Positions 10,174 through 38,243 of a stretch of 48,423 nt of DNA are shown piece by piece (positions within the stretch are counted from its first letter, which is position 1; each line of letters starts with the position of its first letter). The notes beneath the pieces were generated by a model. That model saw nothing but the letters and a program-made list of their open reading frames with translations, searched no databases and was not told the DNA's origin. Both the position numbers and the translations under genes were made by a program. The stretch lies in IMG/VR virus record IMGVR_UViG_3300005518_000007, positions 1 through 48,423 of that record; one strand, given 5' to 3'. The DNA is from a virus.

Positions 10174-10609
10174 AGCGCTTCAGTTCCTTCATGCGGTAGA
10201 CCATCTCACGCCGGAGATCAGCCTCCTCTTCAGGCAATCCTCCGGGCATGTGACCGCGGCGGTACATCATCGCGCGGGCCTGAAGCCATAGCTCCATCTG
10301 CTTCTTCTTGATGATGAGATAGGGATAGATGTCCGCCGCGAAGACATCGGCTTGTTCGGAGAAGACGATCCATCTGCCTAGAGGTTTGCGGACTCCATAC
10401 AGAGTGCGCTGATCGATAGAAACAGCTCCTCTCCACCTCTCCTGCAGCCAGCCGAGAGGATCCATGTCTGTTGAGCTTATGGACAGCGCACATCGAAACG
10501 AGTTGTCCTGGCGATTGGTCGGCCTGGGATGCTTGCGCATATAGAGCTGCACGCACCCCTCGCCGTCGAAGAAGCCCGCGGCGTAAGCATTTTCCAGAGC
10601 GTCTGCCAT
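10166..10609 (-). CDS. LAGLIDADG homing endonuclease
   Basis: 147 residues from ATG 10609-10607, sharing TAATG with the tape measure stop. The N-terminal motif Y-A-A-G-F-F-D-G-E-G-C-V is a LAGLIDADG helix with its Asp/Glu metal ligand. Only one such motif is present, so it would act as a homodimer. The S-I-S-S-T-D and I-I-K-K-K-Q segments are usual for the family. It is free-standing, with no intron visible, and splits the usual tape measure/Dit junction. Such nucleases spread by cutting cognate sites in related phages. Confidence 0.85.
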   Translation of the reverse strand: MADALENAYAAGFFDGEGCVQLYMRKHPRPTNRQDNSFRCALSISSTDMDPLGWLQERWRGAVSIDQRTLYGVRKPLGRWIVFSEQADVFAADIYPYLIIKKKQMELWLQARAMMYRRGHMPGGLPEEEADLRREMVYRMKELKRCG

Positions 10610-13467
10610 TACATGGTGTCGAAGTTAGAGGAGCCGGTGGCATGCTGGTAGCGGGCTTCCGGATGGCCGGCACGTCCGTTGAGGTTCTCGAGCGAGCGCA
10701 GGATGCGGCGCAGGAGCGCATTTGTGGTCTCCACCTGACCGGGCCTCACACCGCGCTCCCGCGCAGCACCGACGGCTGCGCTTGCATCTACGCGCTGCTG
10801 CGGCTCTGCCCCGATGTCCGCTGGACCCCGCCCGCTCGATGAGACGTTCCCCACGAGACCGCCCGTAGCCCCCGAGGGGATGAGGTTCCCCAGCAGATTG
10901 GCCGCGAAGCCCTGCTGGGTCTGCAGGAACTCGAATGTCATGCGCGCAAAGCTCTTGCCCTTGTTCTGGGCCTCCTCGTCTTCCTTGCGGAGGTCCTCTA
11001 TCTCCTTGTTGATGCGAGCGATCTCATTGCGCTTCTCCTTGAGCGCGTTGCCCTGGAGATGCAGCACCTTGATCTCGCGCCTGATCTGGGCAATCAGCTT
11101 CAGGCGCAGGGAAATCTGCCGCTTCTGGTTCTCGTTCGTATCCGCAAGATCGATGTCGAGCTGGATGGAGCGCTCGAGCCGCTCCTGCCTCTCCTGTGCC
11201 GCGTCCCTGAGTGCCTGCCGCTGCTCCTGCCGCAGGCGCTTGATCTCGTTGCCCACCTGCACGATCTGTGAGGTCAGGGATGCGATCGTGGCGGCCCGGA
11301 GCTTCGCATCCTGGATGGTCTTGCGGGCGTTCTTGATCTGCTGTTCCAAGAGATTGATGAAGCGCACACGAAGACGGATGTCGTCCTTCAGCGACTCCGT
11401 GCCCTCTGCCTGCGTGATGAAGCGCTCCCGCGTATCTCGCTTGCCCGAGAGCATGTCGAGGAACGACTGATCCGCCTTGTCCCTGGCGCTCTGGATGTCT
11501 CTGGCGGCGCGCTCGTTGTCCGATGCCTGCTGACTGAGGATGGAGTCAATCTCCGCGCGCACAGCGTCGAGGTCCTGGTTGGCCTTTGTGAGCGTCGCGA
11601 CCACAGCCTTCGTCTGCTCTCGCTTGTTGAGGCGATCGATGAACGCCTGCAGATTCTGCTCACGCTCCTCCAGGAGGCTCACGAGGTCCTGGTCGTTCCC
11701 ACCCGCTCGCGCGGCCTCAATCTCCAGGCCGAGCTTGGCTTGCGGGGTGGCTGCCTGCGTCGTGGCCCGCGCAAGTGCGTCCATATCCCCGGCAAGAGCC
11801 AGCGTGGCTGCCCCGGCTCGCTCCCCTGCATCGATGTAGCCCTCGAGACTCTTGGTGAGCGTGACAACCGGGGGATCAACACTGGCAGTGGCGCTACTCA
11901 GGCCGAACAGATCCTTCGTGAAGTCGGCCACGGCTTGCCCAGCCCTCTCGAAGTCATCCTGGAAAGCGTCCCCACCCTCATCCACGGTCTTCACGAAGTC
12001 GCTGAACCCGCTCTCATCCGAGAGTGACTTGAGGGCATTCCCGATCTGCTCGAGGTCGGAGATCTGCTGCTTCCAGGCCTCGTGGATGTCATGGAGCTCA
12101 TCCGCGAGCGCCCCGAAGAGAAGGGCGGTGGCATCGAGACCCAGTGAGGCGAGCGGTGCTGCCATCTGCCCGATCTCCAGGGCGAAGGCACTGAACTGGT
12201 TCTTGGCATTCTCGACGCTTCCCGCCAGCCCCTCGTTCTTGGCTGCCGCGACGTCCGCGGCGGTGCCCTCTTTGCGCAGAGCATCCTGCGTGGCTCGCAA
12301 CGCGGGGAGTCCCTGCCGGGAGAGGATGGCCGCCACGCGCTGGGCGTTCTCTCCGAAGATGTCCTTGAGCGCCCGATCCTGCGCTGCTCGGTTTAGCCCC
12401 TGTAGCGCAGTCCCCAACTGGACGAAGATATCGGTGCGCAGGTTGCCCTGAGCATCCCGCAGGTCGAGCTGCAACTTTTCGATCTGCTCCGCTGCAGCCG
12501 CTGTCGGTGCAACCAGGCGCGTCAGCGCAACCCTGAGCGTGGTACCTGCGTCAGAGCCTGCCAGGCCGGCCTTCGCAAGCTGGGTGAGGAATACCACGGT
12601 GTCCTGAGCGGACAGGCCGAGCTGGTTGGCAACCGCCGCCGACTGGCGCAGAGCGATACCCATGTCCTCGATGGAGCCCTGGGAGGCATTCGCAGCATTC
12701 GCGAGAAGGTCTGCGATGTCGACAGCCTTGGAGCCCGCAAGCCCGAAGGCATTGAGCGCGTTCGCTACCAGAACTGCAGCGCTGGCGTTATCGATCTCCG
12801 CTGCGGTAGCGAGCTGTAAGGATCCGCGGGCGCCATCGATGGATTCCTGCACGCTGAGCCCTGCCTTAGCGAGCGCGAGCATAGACTCCGCTGCGTCACT
12901 CGCGGACACTCCTGGTAGGCGGATGTCTCGGCCCAGCGCTCGGGCTGTTTCCGCCACACGGGTGAGCTCATCGGCCGTGGCCTCGGTCGTGACGCGGAAG
13001 GTCGCGAGGTCCTGCTCGAGATTGGCCGCAAGCTGCAGGGATTTGAAGAACGTCAACGCACCAGTAGCCCCGATGAGGAAGGCGCTGTTGGCTCCGAGCA
13101 CCGCCCCGCGTAGCCCCGCCAGTCCGAGTGTCTGGGAGAGGACTCCGCGTTCGGCGTTCTTGCTTGCGACAGAGACAGCGGTCTGCGAAGCCGCCAGGGT
13201 TCTCTGCGCCCCGGACGTCTCGAGCGAAACTCTCCCCAGTCTCGATACAGCCGTCGTCTCGCCTGTGACCGCTTCAGCTGCGCTTGTAGCGGAGGTGGTG
13301 ACGCCGGCCGCGCCCCGGGTCAGCGCCGCCTGGTCGAAGCCAATGATCGGGATCTTGATCGGCGGTATGGAGCGCTGAATGGCTCCCAACTGAGCGAGAA
13401 GCTCGGTCCTGAACGCTGCTGTGTTCGGGCGTACGAGAACCTGCGCTTCAGCAATGAACTCGCTCAC
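10609..13467 (-). CDS. tape measure protein
   Basis: 952 residues from GTG 13467-13465 (GTGA overlap). It is the longest gene, with the phage tail tape measure domain in its first half (residues about 130-400, helical with A-E-T-A-R-A-L-G, a conserved I-E-D-M-G-I-A-L-R-Q-S and D-A-G-T-T-L-R). A hydrophobic segment lies near residues 110-125, and an extended charged coiled coil spans about 600-850. At about 0.15 nm per residue it predicts a tail near 140 nm. It follows two tail chaperone frames, as expected. Confidence 0.9.
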   Translation of the reverse strand: MSEFIAEAQVLVRPNTAAFRTELLAQLGAIQRSIPPIKIPIIGFDQAALTRGAAGVTTSATSAAEAVTGETTAVSRLGRVSLETSGAQRTLAASQTAVSVASKNAERGVLSQTLGLAGLRGAVLGANSAFLIGATGALTFFKSLQLAANLEQDLATFRVTTEATADELTRVAETARALGRDIRLPGVSASDAAESMLALAKAGLSVQESIDGARGSLQLATAAEIDNASAAVLVANALNAFGLAGSKAVDIADLLANAANASQGSIEDMGIALRQSAAVANQLGLSAQDTVVFLTQLAKAGLAGSDAGTTLRVALTRLVAPTAAAAEQIEKLQLDLRDAQGNLRTDIFVQLGTALQGLNRAAQDRALKDIFGENAQRVAAILSRQGLPALRATQDALRKEGTAADVAAAKNEGLAGSVENAKNQFSAFALEIGQMAAPLASLGLDATALLFGALADELHDIHEAWKQQISDLEQIGNALKSLSDESGFSDFVKTVDEGGDAFQDDFERAGQAVADFTKDLFGLSSATASVDPPVVTLTKSLEGYIDAGERAGAATLALAGDMDALARATTQAATPQAKLGLEIEAARAGGNDQDLVSLLEEREQNLQAFIDRLNKREQTKAVVATLTKANQDLDAVRAEIDSILSQQASDNERAARDIQSARDKADQSFLDMLSGKRDTRERFITQAEGTESLKDDIRLRVRFINLLEQQIKNARKTIQDAKLRAATIASLTSQIVQVGNEIKRLRQEQRQALRDAAQERQERLERSIQLDIDLADTNENQKRQISLRLKLIAQIRREIKVLHLQGNALKEKRNEIARINKEIEDLRKEDEEAQNKGKSFARMTFEFLQTQQGFAANLLGNLIPSGATGGLVGNVSSSGRGPADIGAEPQQRVDASAAVGAARERGVRPGQVETTNALLRRILRSLENLNGRAGHPEARYQHATGSSNFDTM

Positions 13468-14947: not shown

Positions 14948-16149
14948 TGGCCCACCGTGCGAGCGTAGGGACGTCCCGGAGCCCAGAACACTGGCCTGCG
15001 CTTGAGACCGGCGGTGTTGTAGGTGTTGAGGAAGGCGTCGACCACGGGCATCCCGGTGTTCCAGCCGGCGGCACGCCCACCACGGGCGTAGCGTGAGGAC
15101 GTATAGCCCCAGGTAGCAAACGCCAGCTTCTCGATCGTGATCCCCTGGCGGTTGACGCGCGTGGTGCCGGTGGGAAGAGCACACGTTTGCCCAGCACAGG
15201 CTTTGTAGAGCTCGCACCCGAGCTGCGCAGCGGCATGGATCCCGAGCGGGGGAGCATCCTGCCCGTAGCGGTAGGTGACCGAGAACGTGCCCTCGAACGT
15301 GTCCGGGAGGCCCATGTTCTGGCACACCGGCCAGCGCAGCCAAGTGTCGGGCTCCGTGGGATCGGGGACACGCACCAGCCAGCGGCGCTCATCCAGGCGG
15401 TAGGTGGTGGGGTCGACCACTGCGCCGTCGATCTTGACCTCGGTGATCTCGCGCACCGGGTAGCCGGAGAGCTTCACGCGGTCGAGGGGGCGGCAGCCGC
15501 AGGCATTGGAGCCGTTCCACCACCAACCGTCGTTCCAGTACGGCGTCCAATACGGATCCCACCACCAGTTCCCATACCCGCCCCACACGATGTACCCACG
15601 GGAGAGGACCTGGAAGTTACAGGTCATGTTCCCGCACGGGCGCACGGTCTTCTCGCAGTTCCCAGAGAACTGCCTGCCGGAGAGTTCGTACAAGACCTGG
15701 GAGGCCTCGAGCGCGAACTGGGTCATGTCTACCGGGCATTCCTCCTGGTCCGAGCCCTCCCCGATCGTGGTCATGGGAGAACCGCAGCACTCCCACACCG
15801 CCTGCGAGGAGACCCAGGGCTGGCACGGCCCCTGCACGGCCCAGTCCACGTCCTGGTCTGGGACGGCGGGGTTGGGGATGACGTAGAAGGAGCCGTCTCT
15901 GGCCGCCTCCACCGCCCCCGTCGCAACCACCGAGTAGGAGTAGAAGCCGGGATTCCCCGGAGGGGCCAGCGATAGGAGGAACTCCCCCACCGAGGGGTTC
16001 GTGACCTCGGGGTCACCGTTGACGTAGATCGTGGTGACGCCATCGGGTCCGAGAATCGTGTAGGTGACCGTGGTGGGGTTCGTCAGAGCCCCGTCCGCGG
16101 TGAAGGTGTCCGAGATCTCGATGGGCGTGCCTTGTGTGTAGTCCGGCAT
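14944..16149 (-). CDS. head-tail adaptor with N-terminal Ig-like domain
   Basis: 401 residues from ATG 16149-16147, sharing TAATG with the previous stop. Residues 1-95 (T-P-I-E-I-S-D-T-F, T-V-T-Y-T-I-L-G-P-D-G, F-Y-S-Y-S-V-V-A-T-G) form an Ig/BppU-like beta module. Residues about 135-165 (M-T-Q-F-A-L-E-A-S-Q-V-L-Y-E-L-S-G-R-Q-F) are the helix typical of adaptor proteins. A Trp/Tyr-rich insertion (N-W-W-W-D-P-Y-W and G-W-W-W-N-G) lies near residue 205, then a beta domain with I-T-E-V-K-I-D-G. It is far longer than simple adaptors, which are near 110 residues. Confidence 0.6.
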   Translation of the reverse strand: MPDYTQGTPIEISDTFTADGALTNPTTVTYTILGPDGVTTIYVNGDPEVTNPSVGEFLLSLAPPGNPGFYSYSVVATGAVEAARDGSFYVIPNPAVPDQDVDWAVQGPCQPWVSSQAVWECCGSPMTTIGEGSDQEECPVDMTQFALEASQVLYELSGRQFSGNCEKTVRPCGNMTCNFQVLSRGYIVWGGYGNWWWDPYWTPYWNDGWWWNGSNACGCRPLDRVKLSGYPVREITEVKIDGAVVDPTTYRLDERRWLVRVPDPTEPDTWLRWPVCQNMGLPDTFEGTFSVTYRYGQDAPPLGIHAAAQLGCELYKACAGQTCALPTGTTRVNRQGITIEKLAFATWGYTSSRYARGGRAAGWNTGMPVVDAFLNTYNTAGLKRRPVFWAPGRPYARTVGQ

Positions 16150-18536
16150 TACGTCGCCTTTCTGTCGGATCCGGACACGCTTCCGCCTGGCCGTTCGCTG
16201 CCCGACACTGTACTTCCGGCGCGCGATGAACCAGAGACCCCGAAGCGCGAGGACGTGGAGCCCGAGACCTGAGAACCCGGGACTTCCAAGCTGCAGACGA
16301 TCGATCCTGCGATGTCGAACCCGCAGATGTCTCCGTGAAGCCTCCTGAAGGCCACCAGCGTCACTCTCAGGGCATGGATGACCTTCGGTGGACGGATTCG
16401 CACCAGCCACGTCTGAGGCCCGTAGAAGGCCACTCCTGCGCCCACCACGGAGGGCGGCTTGAGGAGCGTGACCGTTGGCCGCGGGGCGATTCGCGTGAGG
16501 TGAACGAGAACGCCGCGGAAAGGAGCTGCTCCGACTCTCTCCGGCTGGCGGAAGGCCTGCGTCCTGCCCCTGCGCGAATAGGTGAGGTGAACGAGCAGGC
16601 CACGGAAGGGCGCTCTGCCCACGACCACTGGCGGAGAGAGCAGATAGGTCGGTCGCCCGCGCCGGGAAGGTGCGAGATGGACGTCGAGGATCCCGATGTC
16701 CTGCGCATCCGAGATGTCCGTCGGGGGCTTGAGGAAGTAGGTGGTGGGCTTGGGCTTGATCTGCGCCAGGCGGATGACCGGGCCGTAGATTTCGACCGCG
16801 AGGCGCACCACCACAGGGGCGCGCAGGATGTAATGAGGAGCACCGCGCCTGGAGTAGGTGAGGTGGACCCTGAGCGGCGTGTTCTCCTTGAGAACAGTCG
16901 GAGGCTTCAGGAAGGAGGTCGGAGCGCCCCTACTCTGCGGTGCCAGGAACACCTGCGCCGGCCGCGCGATGAACGGGAAGACCGCTGTCGGAGGAGTGAG
17001 GAAGTAGATCGGCCTGCCGCGCCGCGAATATGTGAGGACGGGTGGGAGAACCTGCTGGTACGCGGGCGGCTGCGAGACAACAGCCGGTGCCCGCAGGAAG
17101 TACTTCGGCTCTCCGCGCCGCGAATAGGTCAGCCACAGGAAGGGGCCGTAGGAGACGACCGGAGCAACGACAGCCGGGGGCGAGAGGTGGCTCTTAGTTA
17201 CCGGCCGACGCCCGAGAACCAGCTTGACCTTCGGGCCTGCGTAGACGTCGAAGGCCGCGATCGAGAAGCCGCGCAGGAAGTAGCTCGGAGTGCCCCTGCG
17301 TGAATACGTGAGGTGTGTCTTGAGAAGCCCGATGTCCTGCTGGTCGGAGACATCTGTCGGGGGCTTCAGGAACGAGATCGTGGGTGGAGGCTTGATGCGG
17401 GCGAGGTGAACCTCCGGCCCGTAGATCTCGACCGCCAGGAACACCACGACGGGCGGGGAGAGGCGGTACAGGGGCTGTCCGCGCTTGCTCGGAGCCAGAT
17501 GAACCTGGACGCGGCCCTGATCCTCGAGACCGATGGTGTCTGCGGGCGGCCGCAGGAAGGAAGTCGGAGTGCCTCTGCGCGAATAGGTGAGCCAGACCTC
17601 CGGCCCCGACAGCTCCACCGCCGTGAAGACCACCCGCGGCGCACGCAGGACGTACTGGGCCTTCGACCTGCGGCCTCTGGTGATGTGGACGGCGGGGCCG
17701 TAGTAGATCTGAGCCGCTGCTACCGCAACGATGTAGTTGCGCAGGAAGTACTTGGCGATCGGCCTGCGCTGGGGCGCAAGCACGACCATGGTTCCACCGA
17801 GGCGGTCCTGCTCTACGAGTGGCGTCTTCCCGAGGCCGTTGAGCGGCTTTCCTCTACGCGAGTAGGTCAGCCAGGTCTGCGGGCCGTAGAAGACATCTGT
17901 GACCGGGGTGGTAACGACAGCTGGCGCAGAGAGCTTGTAGTCGGTGCGTACACGCCTGATCCGAACCAGGGAGGTCTTGATCTGCCCGTTCGTGGCAGTG
18001 ATGACCGGCGGGCGGAGGTCATAGTCCGGAGAGCGGCGGGTGACAGTCGAGCGCCGCCTCTCGGGCAGCATCACGTTGAGGTAGACCTTCGGCCCGAAGA
18101 AGATCTGCGCAGCGGTTACGACAGCCGGTGGGCGAAGATGCCCGACACCTGGGCGCCTATAGGAACGGGTGAGGTAGACACCCGGGCCGTGCCAGGAGAT
18201 CCCTCCACCGACCACCGCTGGCGGGCGGAGCTTGGAAGAGAAGGGCAGCCTGCGCGAGAGGCCAGAGCTCTGCTTGGACTTGACCGCCGCCCAGTAGGTA
18301 ATCGAAGGACCGAAGAAGATCTGAACTGCGGCTGCGGTTACGATGGCGGGCGGCCGCAGCTCGTAGCGCGTGAAGTGCCTGTTGACCTCTGCCGGGCTCT
18401 GCCGCCGAACGGTGATCTTGTAGGCAGTCCTGATCGTGCGCTGGTCGAGAAGCGGCAGCGCCGCAGGAGTTACTACGGTCGGGGGGCGGAGGAAGGTATG
18501 GCCGGGGCCAAGATCCGACCTCATGTAGCGGGCCAT
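16149..18536 (-). CDS. giant basic repeat protein, about 23 tandem repeats
   Basis: 795 residues from ATG 18536-18534, directly after the preceding stop. About 23 imperfect repeats of near 30 residues fill the first 735. The consensus is V-x-L-T-Y-S-R-R-G-x-P-x-Y-F-L-R-P-P-A-V-V, then 6-9 variable residues and Y-G-P. Repeats 11-13 and 18-20 also match each other as a block (both carry K-P-P-T-D, then Q-D-I-G), showing higher-order duplication. The last 60 residues switch to Ser/Gly repeats built on V-S-G-S. Strongly basic, almost no Cys, no signal peptide. It lies between appendage genes and the head-tail adaptor, so it is probably a virion component. I know no function. Confidence 0.8.
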   Translation of the reverse strand: MARYMRSDLGPGHTFLRPPTVVTPAALPLLDQRTIRTAYKITVRRQSPAEVNRHFTRYELRPPAIVTAAAVQIFFGPSITYWAAVKSKQSSGLSRRLPFSSKLRPPAVVGGGISWHGPGVYLTRSYRRPGVGHLRPPAVVTAAQIFFGPKVYLNVMLPERRRSTVTRRSPDYDLRPPVITATNGQIKTSLVRIRRVRTDYKLSAPAVVTTPVTDVFYGPQTWLTYSRRGKPLNGLGKTPLVEQDRLGGTMVVLAPQRRPIAKYFLRNYIVAVAAAQIYYGPAVHITRGRRSKAQYVLRAPRVVFTAVELSGPEVWLTYSRRGTPTSFLRPPADTIGLEDQGRVQVHLAPSKRGQPLYRLSPPVVVFLAVEIYGPEVHLARIKPPPTISFLKPPTDVSDQQDIGLLKTHLTYSRRGTPSYFLRGFSIAAFDVYAGPKVKLVLGRRPVTKSHLSPPAVVAPVVSYGPFLWLTYSRRGEPKYFLRAPAVVSQPPAYQQVLPPVLTYSRRGRPIYFLTPPTAVFPFIARPAQVFLAPQSRGAPTSFLKPPTVLKENTPLRVHLTYSRRGAPHYILRAPVVVRLAVEIYGPVIRLAQIKPKPTTYFLKPPTDISDAQDIGILDVHLAPSRRGRPTYLLSPPVVVGRAPFRGLLVHLTYSRRGRTQAFRQPERVGAAPFRGVLVHLTRIAPRPTVTLLKPPSVVGAGVAFYGPQTWLVRIRPPKVIHALRVTLVAFRRLHGDICGFDIAGSIVCSLEVPGSQVSGSTSSRFGVSGSSRAGSTVSGSERPGGSVSGSDRKAT

Positions 18537-18710
18537 CTAGGCCCGCCCTGCTAGGTGAGGATCAGGATCTCTGGTGCGCGTTACCTGACGGCGGGGCGCC
18601 CGAGAGCGACCGGTAACCGAGTGCGGGCGCGGAAAGCAAACGCGCTTGCGCGGCGCCATCACCAGCCGCCGCCCATAGATGCGAGCCTGCCTGAAGCGGT
18701 GCTGGATCAT
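18537..18710 (-). CDS. small Arg-rich protein
   Basis: 57 residues from ATG 18710-18708, sharing TGATG with the upstream stop; its own TAG is followed at once by the ATG of the repeat protein. Arg is the most frequent residue, with segments Y-G-R-R-L, A-P-R-K-R and R-A-P-R-R-Q. Extremely basic, like the giant protein that follows. It may be related to its repeats or bind DNA. Tight packing supports it as a real gene. Confidence 0.6.
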   Translation of the reverse strand: MIQHRFRQARIYGRRLVMAPRKRVCFPRPHSVTGRSRAPRRQVTRTRDPDPHLAGRA

Positions 18711-19249
18711 CAGCCGATCCCGTAGAGCGTGAAGACGGAGCCTTCCTTGATGTCAGACGCCGCGAAGATGGTGATGCGGTCTACCGCTGCGGGGCTGGCG
18801 GTCCAGAAGGTCTGCTGAATGGTCTGTCTGTTGGCGGCGGAATAGAAGCCGTTGCAGACACCGCGCATCACCTTTGTCCAGGTGGTTCCCGTGTACTTCC
18901 CAATGAAGATCTCCCCCATACATGGGTTCACGTCTCCCGTGGCTGCGAGCACGCCTACCAGGCCCTCCGTCTGTCCACCCAGCACGCTCGTGCCGCCCGC
19001 CTGAATGTCGACCTGGGCGAAGGCATAGTTCGCGGCTGAGTCGTTGTTCAACCGCGCATTCAGGTTCTGCGCTGCGGCATTCTCGGTCTGCGCTACCCAG
19101 GTGATCCACAGGTCACGGTAGGTGGCCGGGATGCTCGTGAAGTCGATGGTGGCAGAGCCACCCGCGGGTGCCACGATCTCCTGGATGAACGTGAAGTCAC
19201 CGCCACCGCCGCCGCCAGAGTTCACCACCGTTACCGGGATATACGGCAT
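18710..19249 (-). CDS. virion appendage protein
   Basis: 179 residues from ATG 19249-19247. A Gly-rich linker (residues 12-17) precedes a beta-rich domain with S-I-P-A-T-Y-R-D-L-W-I-T, ending F-T-L-Y-G-I-G. That pattern of an extended beta-sandwich ending in L-Y-G-I/L is common at the C-terminus of phage tail-fibre and decoration proteins. It is the last of a run of five appendage-type genes. Confidence 0.6.
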   Translation of the reverse strand: MPYIPVTVVNSGGGGGGDFTFIQEIVAPAGGSATIDFTSIPATYRDLWITWVAQTENAAAQNLNARLNNDSAANYAFAQVDIQAGGTSVLGGQTEGLVGVLAATGDVNPCMGEIFIGKYTGTTWTKVMRGVCNGFYSAANRQTIQQTFWTASPAAVDRITIFAASDIKEGSVFTLYGIG

Positions 19250-19983: not shown

Positions 19984-20379
19984 CTACGCCACCGCGGTGA
20001 AGGAACAGGTCGCGAGTGTGCTCGCAGCGCCCCCGGAGCCGCCCCCAGTTCGGTAGCGCACCACGTTCACCTTCGCGTCATCCACGAGCAGCCCCCCGAA
20101 GTCCCCGGGGACGAGCGGGTAGGCCGTGAACGTGTACTGCACGATGCCACCGGCATCGGCCTGCACGAGCGCATCCCTGCGCTCATCAGTGTCCCCATCA
20201 TGGCGCTGGCGAATGATGATCTCGTAGAACTCAGCAGACGTACCGCCAGTGGCGGTCACGGTGTACTGGGTGCCCGCTGAGATGGAGACGGGATCGGGGC
20301 TAACCGTGCAGGGCGCTCTCTTGCCCGCCTGCGCCGGGAGAGCCAGAACGAGCGCCACGAGTATGAGCCACTTCACCAT
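19984..20379 (-). CDS. secreted beta-domain protein
   Basis: 131 residues from ATG 20379-20377. Residues 1-18 form a textbook signal peptide (M-V-K-W-L-I-L-V-A-L-V-L-A-L-P-A-Q-A), cut before G-K-R-A-P. The rest is an Ig-like beta-sandwich with C-T-V-S-P-D-P-V-S-I and Y-T-V-T-A-T-G-G, and one later Cys that could form a disulfide. A phage protein with a signal sequence among appendage genes is unusual. It may act at the cell surface rather than on the virion. Confidence 0.65.
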   Translation of the reverse strand: MVKWLILVALVLALPAQAGKRAPCTVSPDPVSISAGTQYTVTATGGTSAEFYEIIIRQRHDGDTDERRDALVQADAGGIVQYTFTAYPLVPGDFGGLLVDDAKVNVVRYRTGGGSGGAASTLATCSFTAVA

Positions 20380-21017
20380 CCTGCACCTCTTCCTAGAAGG
20401 CCAATTGGGGGATTATCGCCAGCGCCCCCGGATACCATCGTGCCGCCCCCGAAGTCATCGATCCGCGCGTTTACATCTGTGATCCCAAATCCGGTGTAGC
20501 CCGCGGCGCTGTAGGTCGCATCCACCTGAGCCAGGTCCGCTGTGGCCCAGGCTCCTGAAGTGAAGACCCAGGCTTGCAAGCTGGACCCAGTGATCGCCAG
20601 GCCGATCTTGTCGCCCGCCGACAGGTTCTGAGTCCAGGACGAGAGCACCGCCCCCACACCCGCGTCATAGCGCTGCAGGCGCATGGTATGTACGCCGCCC
20701 GTGATCCGCCAGTCGACCGAGTAGCCGTTGGGCGTCGATGAGACGGCGCTCAGACGTGCAAAGCAGTAGGTCCCTCCCGCGCCCGTGGCCGGCAGTACGG
20801 AGAGCGTCGCGAACGTCTCCGTGTTTGGCCCAAACGTCCCGACGTTATAGAGGGCGTTACCTGATCGCGCGCCGGCCTCATTGGAGATCCGCTCGAGCTG
20901 ACCGGAGATCCCGTTGATGGCTACTCCTGCGCCGGTCGTCCAGATCCCACCCTCCGAGAGTGGGTCCTCGTTGGCTCCAGTGAAGGCGCTGATAATGGGG
21001 GTGGTGGGGAACGCCAC
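20373..21017 (-). CDS. concanavalin-like lectin-fold appendage protein
   Basis: 214 residues from ATG 21017-21015. The opening I-S-A-F-T-G-A-N-E-D-P-L-S-E-G-G-I-W-T and later W-R-I-T-G-G-V, M-R-L-Q-R-Y-D and I-G-L-A-I-T-G-S segments match the laminin-G/concanavalin-A-like jelly roll found in phage tail and bacterial surface proteins. The C-terminus is a Gly-rich extension. Likely binds glycans, by fold and neighbourhood. Confidence 0.65.
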   Translation of the reverse strand: MAFPTTPIISAFTGANEDPLSEGGIWTTGAGVAINGISGQLERISNEAGARSGNALYNVGTFGPNTETFATLSVLPATGAGGTYCFARLSAVSSTPNGYSVDWRITGGVHTMRLQRYDAGVGAVLSSWTQNLSAGDKIGLAITGSSLQAWVFTSGAWATADLAQVDATYSAAGYTGFGITDVNARIDDFGGGTMVSGGAGDNPPIGLLGRGAGW

Positions 21018-22310
21018 CTATGGAGCTCCGATGGTGATGCCCTCCAGCGTGAGCTTCGACTGCCAGAGATCCCACTCGGCGTCTTCCATCGCCCGCGTGA
21101 TCGTGCCGCCCGCCGGGGCCATGTGGGTGTTGTCCGTCCACGCCCCGGTCGAGGTGCCGTTTCCGTTACCCCTGGGTTCCCCCGAGAACTCCCCGTCGTT
21201 CCCGCGTGAGTAGGAGCCCTGGCTCGTGCCCTTCATGGCTCCGAGGACGTTATCGTGGGCCTGGTTGTCGGAGCCTCCGGGCTTGACGGACATCCCCTGG
21301 TATCCGTAGTAGTTGCGCGTTACGCCGTCATCGAGGTAGCCCGCGTTCGTGTAGCGGTTCCCTAGGAAGCGGTTCCCGCTCGCAGGGCCTGTCCCGGTGG
21401 GGAAGACCGCGATCGAGAGCGTGCGCACGAGGATGTTGTCCTGAATGATGTTGTTGTCGACGTGCTGCCCGGAGCCGCCGTAGCCGTCGAGGGTGATCCC
21501 ATTCTGGGAGGACCCCGGCCCGTTGCCTGGGCGGAACTGGCCCTGCAGGTAGTTGTCGTGCCAGTTCGTGCTCGAGGAGTGGTAGATCGAGAACAGGTCC
21601 TCGGGGTCGGACTTGTTGTACTCGTTGATGATCTCGTTCCAGGCCACCTCGAAAGAGCCTGACTGGTAGAGGCGCACCTGCAGGAAGTTCCCCACCCCAC
21701 CCGAGACGCGCTGGATGTTCGTGTGGCGGTTATAGCGCATGAGGATGTCCCCATTTCCCACCAGGGTGATCCCCGCCGTCTTCACGATCGTGCAGTGCTC
21801 CATCGTGATCGAGTCGAAGATGTCGCAGTCGAGGATGCGCCAGGACCCACCCGTGAGCCGGGAGTTCTGGATGACCAGATTCGGGGGCGTACCCGCGGAG
21901 GTCTTCATCATCGTGCCGGCGGTGTACGTCTGCACGAGACCGTCGAAGGTCACCAGCGAGGTCGTGGAGATCGTGATCTGCCCGTTGAAGACGCCCCCGT
22001 AGGTACCGCCCGTCGTGATGATCCCGTTCCCCGGTACCGGATCGACCGGGGTCACCGGGTTCGTGTGCTCGGTGGGGGTCACGAGAGAGCGCATGGCGTG
22101 CCCGAGATCGGCACTCACGAGTCCGTAGGTGTGCAGGGTTGCACCGGGGATCACCACCGGGTTACTCCCATCGGCGTCACAGCGCTCCCAGGCGTACTCG
22201 TAGGTCAGGTAGTCCTCGTCGAACGTCCACGTCCCGTTGGTGGTCGAGAGTGTCTGCCCGACCTTCGGGGTGCCCGAGACCACGGGTGGCGTGACGTTCA
22301 CGACGGTCAT
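21018..22310 (-). CDS. tail spike-like protein, Ig module plus beta-helix
   Basis: 430 residues from ATG 22310-22308. Residues about 5-90 (V-V-S-G-T-P-K-V-G-Q-T-L, Y-E-Y-A-W-E-R-C-D, I-P-G-A-T, Y-G-L-V-S-A-D-L-G-H) match the Ig-like domain very common in Thermoleophilia surface proteins. Residues about 130-400 have the short N/D/G-rich rungs (N-L-V-I-Q-N-S-R-L, I-T-M-E-H-C-T-I, V-D-N-N-I-I-Q-D-N-I) of a right-handed parallel beta-helix, as in polysaccharide-degrading tail spikes. Catalytic residues cannot be assigned by eye. Confidence 0.7.
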   Translation of the reverse strand: MTVVNVTPPVVSGTPKVGQTLSTTNGTWTFDEDYLTYEYAWERCDADGSNPVVIPGATLHTYGLVSADLGHAMRSLVTPTEHTNPVTPVDPVPGNGIITTGGTYGGVFNGQITISTTSLVTFDGLVQTYTAGTMMKTSAGTPPNLVIQNSRLTGGSWRILDCDIFDSITMEHCTIVKTAGITLVGNGDILMRYNRHTNIQRVSGGVGNFLQVRLYQSGSFEVAWNEIINEYNKSDPEDLFSIYHSSSTNWHDNYLQGQFRPGNGPGSSQNGITLDGYGGSGQHVDNNIIQDNILVRTLSIAVFPTGTGPASGNRFLGNRYTNAGYLDDGVTRNYYGYQGMSVKPGGSDNQAHDNVLGAMKGTSQGSYSRGNDGEFSGEPRGNGNGTSTGAWTDNTHMAPAGGTITRAMEDAEWDLWQSKLTLEGITIGAP

Positions 22311-22586: not shown

Positions 22587-23102
22587 CTACTCAGCCCACA
22601 CAACGCCGGCGTAGCAGTTGACCGCAGCACCTGCGAGGGTGCGGACGCGGGCAAATGCCGACACGGCCACTTCGGGCTCTCTTCCCAGCGGGAACTGGAT
22701 GTAGATGCCCGAGGTAGGCGGCACGAAGTGCGCCTCCAGCGACACCGGGGTACCCGTCGGGGTGACCTCGGTGGTCGTGTTGGAGTAACCCGAGAGCGCC
22801 GCACCGAGCTGGACGCTCGAGGCGGGTGCGTTCGGGTCATTGAACTTCGAGATGTCGCCTGCGACATACGCGGTCAGGGTGGTCTGCGGCGTTGCGGTGT
22901 GCCGCAGGAGCTCCACCTTGATCGGAGTTGCCGCCGTGGAGCCGTCGAACTCGACCCACCATTCCACGAAGCGAATGGCCGGCGTGGTCGTGTTGGTCGC
23001 GAGCTGGAGCATGGTACGAGTGGTCGTACCAGTGGTGATCGCAACCGGGGGGTTCGCGCCAGGCGCGGCCCCATTAGTGACTCCGTACGTCTTTTCAGCC
23101 AC
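22587..23102 (-). CDS. virion appendage protein
   Basis: 171 residues from GTG 23102-23100. Beta-rich with V-E-W-W-V-E-F-D-G, I-K-V-E-L-L-R and I-Y-I-Q-F-P-L-G-R-E strands, typical of phage capsid decoration or fibre proteins. It follows two glycosyltransferase-like genes and starts the appendage run. Confidence 0.5.
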   Translation of the reverse strand: MAEKTYGVTNGAAPGANPPVAITTGTTTRTMLQLATNTTTPAIRFVEWWVEFDGSTAATPIKVELLRHTATPQTTLTAYVAGDISKFNDPNAPASSVQLGAALSGYSNTTTEVTPTGTPVSLEAHFVPPTSGIYIQFPLGREPEVAVSAFARVRTLAGAAVNCYAGVVWAE

Positions 23103-23805
23103 TTGCTGCTACCTCCTCCTTGGAGTCGGCCGCGTTGGACGCGGTTGTAGGCGTCTCGATGGGGATATACAGCCTGGTGCCGTCGGCCACCGAGAAACCG
23201 ACTGCCCATTCCTGGTCGACCCATGAGGGCCAAATCGCGGTAGGAGTCATGTGCCCGAGATGGGCACCCAGATCGCAGAAGACCTCGAACCCTGCTGCGA
23301 TTGCCTTCTCGCAGAAGACGATGTCCTCAGAGGCGTCCCAGCGCTCAGTCTTCCCGTACTCGAACCAGGGAGACCCGATCGCCTCGAACACCTCCCTGCG
23401 CACGAGGAGCCCTGCCGTCCCCACTGCCTGCACTTGAAGCAGGCCCTCCCCAGGAAGCTGGTGGAGGTCGATCGTGTGGTAGAGACCGTCTTCACGATGA
23501 GAGAAGGCAAGCGGGGAGAAGGGCGCCTGGCGGCGCAGGTAGAGGCTCCCCACAACGTCCTTGTGGTGCGACAGCAAGCGGGTGAGGATGTCCCCCGGGA
23601 AGACGTGGTCGTCATCGATGAAGAAGAGCCACTCCGAGTCCGACTCCAGCATGCGCTCCACGAGCTTGTTGCGCCCCCGCACGATGTCCGTCGAGAGCGC
23701 CCAGTCCACCATCGTTCCCGGGTCATGCTTGAGCTGGGTTAGGCAGACCGGGAAGAGCGTGTACCGGCTCTCATCGTTCGCAACGATTCCGACTGTCCCG
23801 CTCAT
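23095..23805 (-). CDS. glycosyltransferase, GT-A type (tandem copy 2)
   Basis: 236 residues from ATG 23805-23803. Begins G-I-V-A-N-D-E-S-R-Y-T-L-F; carries the metal-binding F-F-I-D-D-D-H at residues near 60, a R-G-R-N-K-L helix before it, and G-T-A-G-L-L-V-R-R, a common acceptor-side motif. Paralogous to the gene before it (copy 1), with the same opening and D-D-D-H motif. Phage proteins of this type next to structural genes may glycosylate virion proteins or host glycans. Confidence 0.7.
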   Translation of the reverse strand: MSGTVGIVANDESRYTLFPVCLTQLKHDPGTMVDWALSTDIVRGRNKLVERMLESDSEWLFFIDDDHVFPGDILTRLLSHHKDVVGSLYLRRQAPFSPLAFSHREDGLYHTIDLHQLPGEGLLQVQAVGTAGLLVRREVFEAIGSPWFEYGKTERWDASEDIVFCEKAIAAGFEVFCDLGAHLGHMTPTAIWPSWVDQEWAVGFSVADGTRLYIPIETPTTASNAADSKEEVAASG

Positions 23806-24494
23806 GCTTCTACTCTCTCAGACGTCGTGGATGCTTCCCCGTACTCGATCGGGAGGATCACGTTCGTGGCTGCACCGTAGGAGCCGATGGTGGCGCCCAC
23901 GGCCCACTCGCCGTCGTGGACGGTCGGCCACATGACCGCGTGCGTGATGTGACCGATTTTCACCGAAAGGTCGACGTGGATGTCGAAGCCCTCCGCCTTG
24001 GCCTTGTTGCAGAAGAGGAGATCCTCTGATGCGGCGTCATATTCGAACCAGCGGGGGCCACCGATCGAGACCAGCACCGAGCGGTGAATGAGCATCCCCG
24101 CCGTTCCTGCCGCCACGATCTCCACGAGGCCCGACTCCTCCTGCCCCGGCAGGTAGATGGGGAGGTAGCGGGTGTCGTCCACGCGCTCCGTGAAAGCCAC
24201 GGGCGGGAAGGGAGCCGAGCGTGTGGTGCAGACGGGCACGATCAGCTTCTTATCGTGAGAGAGGAGCTGGTTCAGGACGTTGGGTGCGAAGGCATGATCA
24301 TCGTCCATGAAGAACAGCCACTCGGCCTGTGAGTCGAGGGTCATCTGGCAGAGCGCGTTCCGCGCACCGCACCAGTCACCCCCGATCAGCGTCTCCTTGC
24401 GCCAGCCCGTGGGGAGCTCCAGCTTGTCCAGGCACGTCCAGAAGAGCGTGTAGCGCGCTGAGTCGTTCGCGATGACGCCGACTATGCCGGACAC
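23802..24494 (-). CDS. glycosyltransferase, GT-A type (tandem copy 1)
   Basis: 230 residues from ATG 24494-24492, sharing ATGA with copy 2. Opening M-S-G-I-V-G-V-I-A-N-D-S-A-R-Y-T-L-F; F-F-M-D-D-D-H as nucleotide-sugar/metal site; G-T-A-G-M-L-I-H-R. Clearly related to 23095-23805, so a tandem duplication followed by divergence. The product is cytoplasmic, with no membrane segment. Substrate unknown. Confidence 0.7.
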   Translation of the reverse strand: MSGIVGVIANDSARYTLFWTCLDKLELPTGWRKETLIGGDWCGARNALCQMTLDSQAEWLFFMDDDHAFAPNVLNQLLSHDKKLIVPVCTTRSAPFPPVAFTERVDDTRYLPIYLPGQEESGLVEIVAAGTAGMLIHRSVLVSIGGPRWFEYDAASEDLLFCNKAKAEGFDIHVDLSVKIGHITHAVMWPTVHDGEWAVGATIGSYGAATNVILPIEYGEASTTSERVEA

Positions 24495-36536: not shown

Positions 36537-37420
36537 ACGAGAGCGGTCTGGCCCTGGCATAGATCCAGCCACCATTTTCGGTCCCAGGGCTTCTCAGGAT
36601 CGGGGATGTAGCCGATTCGGTCGAGCATGAAGTCTCGAAGTGGCCCCTGCGCCCATTCAACGTACGGCACCGGGAACCCGCGCTTATCCTTGCGATCGAG
36701 GATGGCCTGCGGCAGATACCCGTACATCGCATCCTTGAGCATGACCTTCCCCACGCGCTCCGAGTCCGGCCGTCCGAGAACGTAGTTCGCGACTCGCACG
36801 TCGGTCATTGGCGCGATGCCGGTGAGGCCATGCGCGGCGTTCACCTTCTCGTCCACCGCGAGCAGCGCCGGCAGGTTCACCTTCCATTCGAAGTCGAGAG
36901 CAGCGGCCAGCGTCTCTGGGTAGCCCGCGGGGAGGACATAGTTCTCGTATCCCTCAGGAGGCGGAATCCCCGCCACGAGATGGAGTCGTGCATATCCCCC
37001 GAACAGCTCATCTCCGCCCTCTCCTGATAGGACTGTCGAGACATGCTGCGAGACGTAGCGCGCCACCATGTACTGCCCGAACGTCCCCGGCCCCTCCGTC
37101 GGAGGCCCGATCTTCTCCACCATCTTGTCGAAGTGGTCGATGAAGTCCTGGGGCGTGATCTCGATCTCGTGCCACTCGCGGCCCTGCGTCATCAGCGCGG
37201 CCCATGGCCTTTCATCGTAGGCCGCTCCCTGGTAGTAGCCGGTGAAGGCGGGGAGCTCCGGCGCGAAGTACGCGACCGTGGAGGAGTCGATCCCGCCCGA
37301 GAGAAGAACCCCGGTGTTTCCGGGTTCGTGGAGCGCCGCGTGCCTGACGGCGTTTGCGATCAGGTCACGAAGCATCCTTCTCTCCAATCCGTAGGTGGGT
37401 GTGCGTTTGGGTGACTCCAT
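36533..37420 (-). CDS. asparagine-synthetase-like amidotransferase, synthetase domain only
   Basis: 295 residues from ATG 37420-37418, overlapping the epimerase gene by 56 nt; ATG 37375 is an alternative. PP-loop L-L-S-G-G-I-D-S-S at 39-47 and S-G-E-G-G-D-E-L-F-G-G-Y at 132-143 are the ATP-pyrophosphatase signatures of AsnB. The usual N-terminal glutaminase domain with Cys2 is absent, so the enzyme would need free ammonia or a partner. In O-antigen clusters, AsnB homologues amidate uronic-acid sugars. A like role here fits its neighbours. Confidence 0.75.
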   Translation of the reverse strand: MESPKRTPTYGLERRMLRDLIANAVRHAALHEPGNTGVLLSGGIDSSTVAYFAPELPAFTGYYQGAAYDERPWAALMTQGREWHEIEITPQDFIDHFDKMVEKIGPPTEGPGTFGQYMVARYVSQHVSTVLSGEGGDELFGGYARLHLVAGIPPPEGYENYVLPAGYPETLAAALDFEWKVNLPALLAVDEKVNAAHGLTGIAPMTDVRVANYVLGRPDSERVGKVMLKDAMYGYLPQAILDRKDKRGFPVPYVEWAQGPLRDFMLDRIGYIPDPEKPWDRKWWLDLCQGQTALV

Positions 37421-38243
37421 GCTCGCGGTAAGACTCGACCGTCATGCGAATTCCATCGTTTAGAGGGGTCGTAGCAATCCATCCCGGCAGGCGCTTCTCA
37501 CTTGAGAGCGTTCCCTGAACGTCATCGGGATCAGGGGGGACCAGCGAGTAGCGCGTCTCGACTAGGCCAAGTTCGTTCATGATCTTCTCGTACAGAACGA
37601 AGATCGGGGTCTGCACACCGGAACCCATGTCGAATGTCCCCGTGGTCCGTTCCTCCACAACGCGCTTCACGGCTCTCACCAGATCATCGATGAACAGCAT
37701 GTCCCTACTCGTATCCACCACCACGCACGGCTGCCCCTCACTCAACCGCTTGTAGAAGGTCGGGATCGGCCCCGACAGGTTCCGGGGGCCGTAGATGTTC
37801 GCGAGACGCAGAACGGTCAGGTCGACGCCCGACAGGCGCAGATACTGCTCGGCCGCGATCTTGGAGATTGCGTAGGAGGAGACCGGCGGCAGGATGGTCT
37901 GGAAATAGATGAGGTGCGCACCGTGGTGCTTCGCGACCAGCGCCGCGTTGATCCCGCCCAGAACGTTCGTCTCGGCGTCTCGGTGCCACTTGTCGGGGTC
38001 GGAGTAGGAGGCAGCGCAGTGGATGACCACATCAGGCTCCAGGTCATTCGCAACGTCGTAGAGATCGCGGCGGTTCGTGATGTCTAGCGTGAACACACCA
38101 TCACGGTTCTTATGTCCTGTCAGCCAGTTGTCGAATCCCACCAAATCGTTGCTAACCGCATCCTCATCCTTGATGAGCTCCCAGAAGGCATCCATGAGAT
38201 GGCTGCCGATAAAGCCACCTGCCCCAGTGATGAGAATGCGCAT
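37365..38243 (-). CDS. NAD-dependent epimerase/dehydratase
   Basis: 292 residues from ATG 38243-38241. Extended SDR: G-A-G-G-F-I-G at 7-13 binds NAD(P), and S-S-Y-A-I-S-K at 122-128 supplies Tyr124 and Lys128. R-L-A-N-I-Y-G-P-R-N is the substrate-region signature of UDP-sugar epimerases/dehydratases. It would change a nucleotide-activated sugar for the adjacent glycosyltransferases. Cytoplasmic. Confidence 0.85.
   Translation of the reverse strand: MRILITGAGGFIGSHLMDAFWELIKDEDAVSNDLVGFDNWLTGHKNRDGVFTLDITNRRDLYDVANDLEPDVVIHCAASYSDPDKWHRDAETNVLGGINAALVAKHHGAHLIYFQTILPPVSSYAISKIAAEQYLRLSGVDLTVLRLANIYGPRNLSGPIPTFYKRLSEGQPCVVVDTSRDMLFIDDLVRAVKRVVEERTTGTFDMGSGVQTPIFVLYEKIMNELGLVETRYSLVPPDPDDVQGTLSSEKRLPGWIATTPLNDGIRMTVESYREHGVTQTHTHLRIGEKDAS

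Follow-up and report, generated by a model that had tools for sequence, protein, structure and literature searches.

The window analyzed here is a 48,423-nucleotide stretch of viral DNA (IMG/VR virus record IMGVR_UViG_3300005518_000007). It contains a reading frame of 795 codons, open from its ATG, that encodes what we call the LRPP-repeat protein. This frame, its internal divisions and the genes that accompany it in other phages are listed in Table 1.

Table 1. Features of the window that bear on the repeat protein (G numbers denote relatives described in the text)
Feature	Position	Strand	Basis or remark
Head-tail adaptor, 401 aa	14944..16149	-	phrog_783, 3.6e-44; ATG at 16147-16149
Ig-like N-terminal extension of adaptor, residues 1-92	15874..16149	-	Lacking in five cultured relatives; candidate docking domain
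LRPP-repeat protein, giant basic tandem-repeat protein, 795 aa	16149..18536	-	ORF, composition, autocorrelation, repeat profile
Non-repeat C-terminal segment: CGFDIAGSIVC-type stretch and Ser/Thr/Gly-rich VSGS tail	16152..16382	-	Sequence comparison
Array of 22 repeats, ~31 residues each (residues 13-718)	16383..18500	-	Family-trained profile
57-aa Arg-rich protein, pI ~12, ending DPHLAGRA	18537..18710	-	Counterparts directly upstream of repeat gene in G001-G005
179-aa probable appendage protein	18710..19249	-	Relatives adjoin repeat gene in G003, near it in G005
171-aa beta-sandwich-like protein	22587..23102	-	Every other carrier of the repeat protein has a copy 70-84% identical to this one
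Glycosyltransferase-like protein	23095..23805	-	phrog_1574; weak Pfam Anp1/GT2 matches, DDD motif; in all carriers
Second glycosyltransferase-like protein	23802..24494	-	phrog_1574
Nucleotide-sugar epimerase	37365..38243	-	phrog_540; relatives in G004 and G005 contigs

A chain of basic repeats

The computed mass of the repeat protein is 87.6 kDa, with a pI of 11.35 and a net charge of about +79. Its residues include 90 Pro, 86 Arg, 27 Lys, 20 Asp, 15 Glu and 2 Cys. Autocorrelation of the sequence is strongest at spacings of 62, 31 and 30 residues (z 7.4, 6.8 and 5.9). A 31-position family profile detects 22 repeats in the protein and scores 473 bits on it, compared with at most 8.4 bits in 200 shuffles. 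The family consensus is KSrLrPPtVVglavvfrgpaVtLAySrRGrP. In the turn of the repeat, basic residues cluster at positions 27, 28 and 30 and acidic ones hardly occur; positions 1, 3 and 5 are also rich in basic residues. The motif Y-G-P occurs six times and L-T-Y-S-R-R-G seven times, and the C-terminal CGFDIAGSIVC-type stretch has similar counterparts in three relatives (G001, G002 and G005). An initial annotation, made by reading the sequence, had described about 23 repeats of ~30 residues with Y-G-P and T-Y-S-R-R-G motifs, followed by a Ser/Gly V-S-G-S tail, in a very basic, Pro-rich and almost Cys-free protein. The profile count comes close to this estimate, and the remaining traits are all present.

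AlphaFold2 did not produce a confident model of the repeats. Four repeats were predicted with a pLDDT of 53 and without strands, and the chain could be disordered.

Known protein families offer no counterpart. Searches of Pfam, NCBIfam and PHROGs with the window protein returned noise only, profiles of fibre or beta-helix families (tailspikes and known tail fibres) did not match it, and a PDB search with a profile of the repeats gave no convincing solved structure. The protein and its relatives likewise had no tblastn match in 50,697 phage records and 72,556 plasmids. When the relatives were compared with the family libraries, scores were weak and no single stretch was significant, the best being phrog_23824 at 3.7e-6 for G001. 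Scanning 84,980 prokaryotic genomes with a stringent pattern yielded one contig, in which the repeat profile detects nothing, and a host search through GTDB genomes gave no result. The initial annotation had recognized no phage structural family in this protein and had proposed a profile search as a check; that search gave no strong match to a characterized repeat family in Pfam, NCBIfam, PHROGs or the PDB. The LRPP-repeat proteins thus appear to constitute a previously undescribed family, without a counterpart in any of the reference libraries covered.

Relatives in uncultured phages

A degenerate-codon pattern run over IMG/VR returned 42 stretches, five of which encode true relatives (G001 = L007/L055, G002 = L020/L066, G003 = L027/L058, G004 = L033/L061 and G005 = L044/L062). 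A sixth, G030 (L100/L110; 1147 aa), was reached through its linked 171-aa gene, and its repeat-profile score is 38.5 bits, compared with at most 10.7 bits in ~300 shuffles. Since relatives were found by sequence patterns, divergent ones will have escaped detection and the size of the family is a lower bound.

The repeat proteins are only ~30-40% identical across the family. All six relatives, at 961-1338 aa, are strongly basic; net charge runs from +79 to +146 in the seven members, and the GC content of their genes from 0.44 to 0.71. The strong basicity pointed out in the initial annotation is therefore a family trait, and its persistence across this range of base composition argues that the charge is selected.

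The repeats are old

Block duplication within the gene had been taken as a sign of recent growth by recombination. The nucleotide sequence does not support this claim. The gene contains no tandem array at the DNA level. The two duplicated blocks, at residues 359-419 and 571-631, agree at 42 of 61 positions but have only 68% nucleotide identity, and the same codon is used at just 21 of the 42 sites with an identical residue. Codons also differ among the seven LTYSRRG copies. The blocks thus represent an old duplication, and the repeats as a whole are old and maintained by selection on the protein. A two-repeat unit of the window protein (VVVFLAVEIYGP...PTDLVDQQDVG) has a very similar counterpart in G001.

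A linked module on three capsid backbones

The window and G001, G002, G004 and G005 represent related siphophages of the ReqiPine5/cluster-B-like type. Profiles and gene order identify a portal, protease, capsid hexamer (phrog_777) and pentamer proteins, major tail protein (phrog_792), phrog_783 adaptor and tape measure in this backbone. In all five, the repeat gene lies between the major tail protein and appendage genes on one side and the adaptor gene on the other, in line with the place between appendage genes and adaptor given in the initial annotation. G003 has an unrelated capsid (phrog_29) and a GC content of 40%, and its repeat gene does not adjoin a phrog_783 adaptor gene. G030 has a third capsid type (phrog_1005) and a GC content of 69%.

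Several genes accompany the repeat gene on these backbones. The 171-aa protein is encoded by all seven carriers, and the G003 copy is ~72-83% identical to the others. The gene was found on ten contigs, and the repeat gene was found on all six that have enough flanking sequence; the other four end within ~0.5-4 kb and are uninformative on this point. All seven carriers also encode at least one phrog_1574-type glycosyltransferase. The phrog_540 epimerase is a possible source of sugar donors, and its association with the repeat gene is looser. Finally, in the window and in G001-G005 the gene immediately upstream of the repeat gene encodes a tiny protein with a pI of ~12. The versions of this protein in the window, G003, G004 and G005 share a C-terminal (E/D)PHL motif. 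G030 has instead an 89-aa basic protein with LRPP motifs of its own, one gene further from the repeat gene. As these reading frames are short, their reality rests on recurrent position and motif. The Arg-rich neighbor of 57 residues singled out in the initial annotation is thus a conserved partner of the repeat gene.

The repeat protein, the 171-aa protein, the glycosyltransferases and the tiny basic protein occur together on three capsid backbones with GC contents of 40-69%. They form a module that is transferable between phages with unrelated capsids. A 171-aa protein that stays at least 70% identical between phages of 40% and 69% GC, co-transferred with a fast-changing repeat protein, is unusual.

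The AlphaFold2 model of the 171-aa protein is mostly beta, with modest confidence (pLDDT 63, pTM 0.65). Foldseek relates the model to uncharacterized phage proteins (best 1.3e-5). Matches in the PDB are weak and comprise virus coat proteins and similar beta-sandwiches, among them the turret of the archaeal tailed virus HFTV1, for which an E value of 0.11 is not significant. By likeness to the HFTV1 turrets, a beta-sandwich surface decoration is plausible, as is a location of the 171-aa protein at the virion surface.

These fold matches also bear on the possibility that the repeat protein is a structural sleeve or cement strand, wrapped around the neck, tail or capsid, that stabilizes the particle and does not bind the host. 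With their short hydrophobic segments, extended Pro-rich repeats could add to the sheets of subunits, and a beta-sandwich partner weakly resembling coat and turret proteins would suit such a role. However, occurrence of the module with three non-homologous capsids speaks against a capsid-specific fit, and a tail sleeve is disfavored by protein length. Repeat-protein and tape-measure lengths are 795/952, 1338/848, 1097/1758 and 961/838 aa, and the idea that repeat number tracks tail length was rejected on these values. We regard a sleeve or cement strand as quite unlikely. The repeat protein was also rejected as the tape measure itself, as the window encodes a separate tape measure at 10609-13467 and the lengths of the two are uncorrelated.

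Tandem repeats precede an Ig-like domain

In the window, the start codon of the adaptor gene overlaps the stop codon of the repeat gene (TAATG), and the adaptor gene follows directly in all five window-like phages. The repeat gene is translationally coupled to a fusion of an Ig-like domain and the adaptor. The term 'Ig-like' is our reading of the sequence pattern, as the domain is named by no library, and its profile detects no relative in the PDB or PHROGs. Elsewhere in IMG/VR, the domain is encoded by a separate small gene. The gene that follows the repeat gene in G030 was considered as a further example and is not detectably Ig-like.

Taking an autocorrelation z above 5 as a tandem-repeat call, the ORF directly upstream of the Ig-like domain is repetitive at ~15 of 17 loci, compared with 5 of 184 control ORFs from the same loci; the loci were gathered by domain similarity and so are not independent draws, and some of the upstream ORFs are cut by contig ends. 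At L090 the longest overlapping frame was tabulated, and the frame that reads as a real protein scores higher (z 13.8). At L126, ~210 bases separate the end of the repetitive ORF from the domain. L072 departs from the pattern, as does the second copy of the domain in the L086/L124 contig. These results provide a testable rule: where the Ig-like domain is found, a tandem-repeat protein should be encoded just upstream.

The upstream ORFs differ widely, with best periods of 10 to 62 residues and net charges of -30 to +118, and in other phages these proteins are often neutral or acidic. Polyanion binding therefore cannot be the general function of proteins at this position.

The same finding weakens the main rival to a surface location, which is that the repeat protein is an internal DNA-binding virion component. 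The basic repeats and their protamine-like neighbor would then neutralize packaged DNA or be ejected with it. Such a role would account for the high positive charge of every family member, for the pI ~12 protein that is always nearby and for the position of the gene in the head-to-neck region. It leaves unexplained why same-slot proteins of other phages are neutral or acidic. Moreover, the linked glycosyltransferases and appendage-like genes suggest the particle surface, and the gene follows that of the major tail protein rather than lying among scaffold or ejection genes. We consider an internal role unlikely.

The protein might alternatively act outside the virion, either in the infected cell or on release at lysis, as a substrate or carrier for the glycosyltransferases or as a polycation that acts on the host. 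The linked glycosyltransferases and epimerase are compatible with this, and products of structural regions can be missing from virions, as are the Corndog glycosyltransferases (PMC4351075). Overlap with the adaptor gene and the Ig-like domain rule both point to the particle, however, and no signal peptide is apparent by eye at the N terminus (MARYMRSDLGPGHT). A non-virion role is the most improbable of the alternatives considered here.

A candidate fibre tethered at the neck

The best reading of the LRPP-repeat protein is that of a fibrous virion component, as had been suggested initially. It is inferred from synteny, the linked glycosyltransferases and the Ig-like domain rule. Of the earlier interpretation, the lack of a known family, the position, the basicity and the small Arg-rich partner all stand, whereas recent growth by recombination falls with the 21 of 42 shared codons. 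More specifically, we assign a probability of roughly 45% to a fibre or stalk on the surface of a siphophage virion, attached at the neck between head and tail, whose basic turns bind anionic polymers and which probably carries glycans.

Such a fibre could work as follows. Each repeat would supply a pair of strand-like segments (SxLxPPxVV and xVxLAyS) with a basic turn, SRRGxP or RIRPxxT, between them, from which we infer that the array may be a long rod or solenoid. The C-terminal end of the array would dock on Ig-like domains that ring the adaptor; this docking role is a guess, given that the PDB and PHROGs yielded no relative of the domain. The basic turns, arranged as a ladder, could bind anionic polymers such as teichoic or other acidic glycans or extracellular DNA, providing reversible adhesion ahead of contact with the true receptor. 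The linked glycosyltransferases may act on the 171-aa protein or on the tail rich in Ser, Thr and Gly, and the repetitive part of the fibre would be exchangeable between phages.

The rule for the Ig-like domain suggests a broader scheme, which we propose tentatively and at slightly less than even odds. Many uncultured phages would swap fibres on a common Ig-like dock, free or fused to the adaptor, that nearly always follows a phage-specific giant tandem-repeat protein. LRPP would be one such cassette, moving with its beta-sandwich partner and glycosyltransferases between unrelated capsids. If these proteins are neck fibres, then exchange of repeat cassettes would let phages modify an adhesive appendage in both length and surface chemistry, and the repeat proteins would point to natural substrates of phage glycosyltransferases. 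Newly recognized here are the linked module on three capsid backbones and the coupling to the Ig-like domain with its upstream-repeat rule.

Comparison with known systems

The closest parallel in layout is with the neck passage structure (NPS) proteins, or neck whiskers, of lactococcal siphophages (TP901-1 and the 936 group), which are large and thought to project from the neck. Models of lactococcal phages place the N-terminal domains of NPS proteins in a ring at the adaptor, and these domains carry widely variable fibres (PMC10747895, PMC6669499, PMC4759559). Both systems would combine a beta-sandwich domain at the adaptor with interchangeable outer parts, and both vary in presence or absence near the major tail gene (same sources). 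In the NPS, however, a single chain holds together a BppU-like N-terminal domain, a coiled coil and a carbohydrate-binding module, whereas in our case the fibre is a basic array of tandem repeats without detectable homology, and the candidate dock is an Ig-like domain separate from it and fused to the adaptor. No Pfam, PHROG, NCBIfam or PDB match to a trimeric coiled coil or terminal carbohydrate-binding module was found in the repeat protein. By analogy, then, the NPS would be a precedent for the layout and not a homologue.

In the cultured relative ReqiPine5, the equivalent slot holds gp21, annotated as an SGNH hydrolase, and in Gordonia phage Lennon it holds gp26, which by eye reads as a tailspike-like beta-helix. 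Like the repeat gene, both lie immediately upstream of the head-tail adaptor gene in a related structural module, but these proteins are single-domain enzymes or beta-helices without tandem repeats, and their adaptors do not have the Ig-like domain.

Linkage of phage-encoded glycosyltransferases to structural genes also recalls the virion glycosylation of Che8-type mycobacteriophages. Reports cited in PMC12619734 describe mycobacteriophage capsid and tail-tube subunits that bear glycans at their C-termini. The reported substrates in the Che8-type systems are capsid and tail-tube subunits, whereas the enzymes described here travel with the repeat and 171-aa proteins, their putative substrates.

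Tandem-repeat proteins upstream of the Ig-like domain

In several IMG/VR stretches (L handles), tandem-repeat proteins of other kinds lie directly upstream of the Ig-like domain. Their repeat periods are 18–24, and the proteins that were searched against PHROGs gave no match. When the last 40–60 residues of the proteins in this position were compared by eye, a similar short strand-like tail was observed to end otherwise unrelated repeat proteins (window, L088, L089, L090, L127, and L128). Examples are VSLEEATMRVSLEG, VALGSAVLSDVAIGVAVLEEV, and VSLDVIDCD. This C-terminal ending is possibly a shared docking tail.

Features near the repeat-protein genes
Feature	Location	Basis
Other repeat protein, directly upstream of Ig-like domain	L069:7680-9998	
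Same	L088:1934-4297	
Same	L089:5746-8853	
Same	L090:9054-9908	
Same	L127:3743-4966	
Probable appendage gene, product resembles a right-handed beta-helix protein	window 21018-22310	by eye
Probable appendage gene, lectin-like	window 20373-21017	by eye
Putative methyltransferase-like sugar-modifying enzyme	L062:16014-16535	by eye
Same	L110:5987-6511	by eye
Same	L055:1813-2451	by eye
Same	L060:15077-15601	by eye
Same	L056:12752-13507	by eye
Nucleotide-sugar epimerase	window 37365-38243	phrog_540
299-residue protein, two similar halves	L062:7865-8764 (G005)	
Same	L061:3839-4738 (G004)	

Neighboring genes

The two further probable appendage genes lie upstream of the window's repeat gene in the same cluster, and neither product has a significant library match. 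A putative methyltransferase-like protein (∼52%–55% identity) accompanies five of the seven repeat-protein carriers, spanning two capsid backbones; it was not found in the window or carrier G003. The window's epimerase gene belongs to the early structural region and has relatives on carrier contigs G004 and G005. In these same two contigs, the gene for the two-halved protein is immediately upstream of the tiny basic gene.
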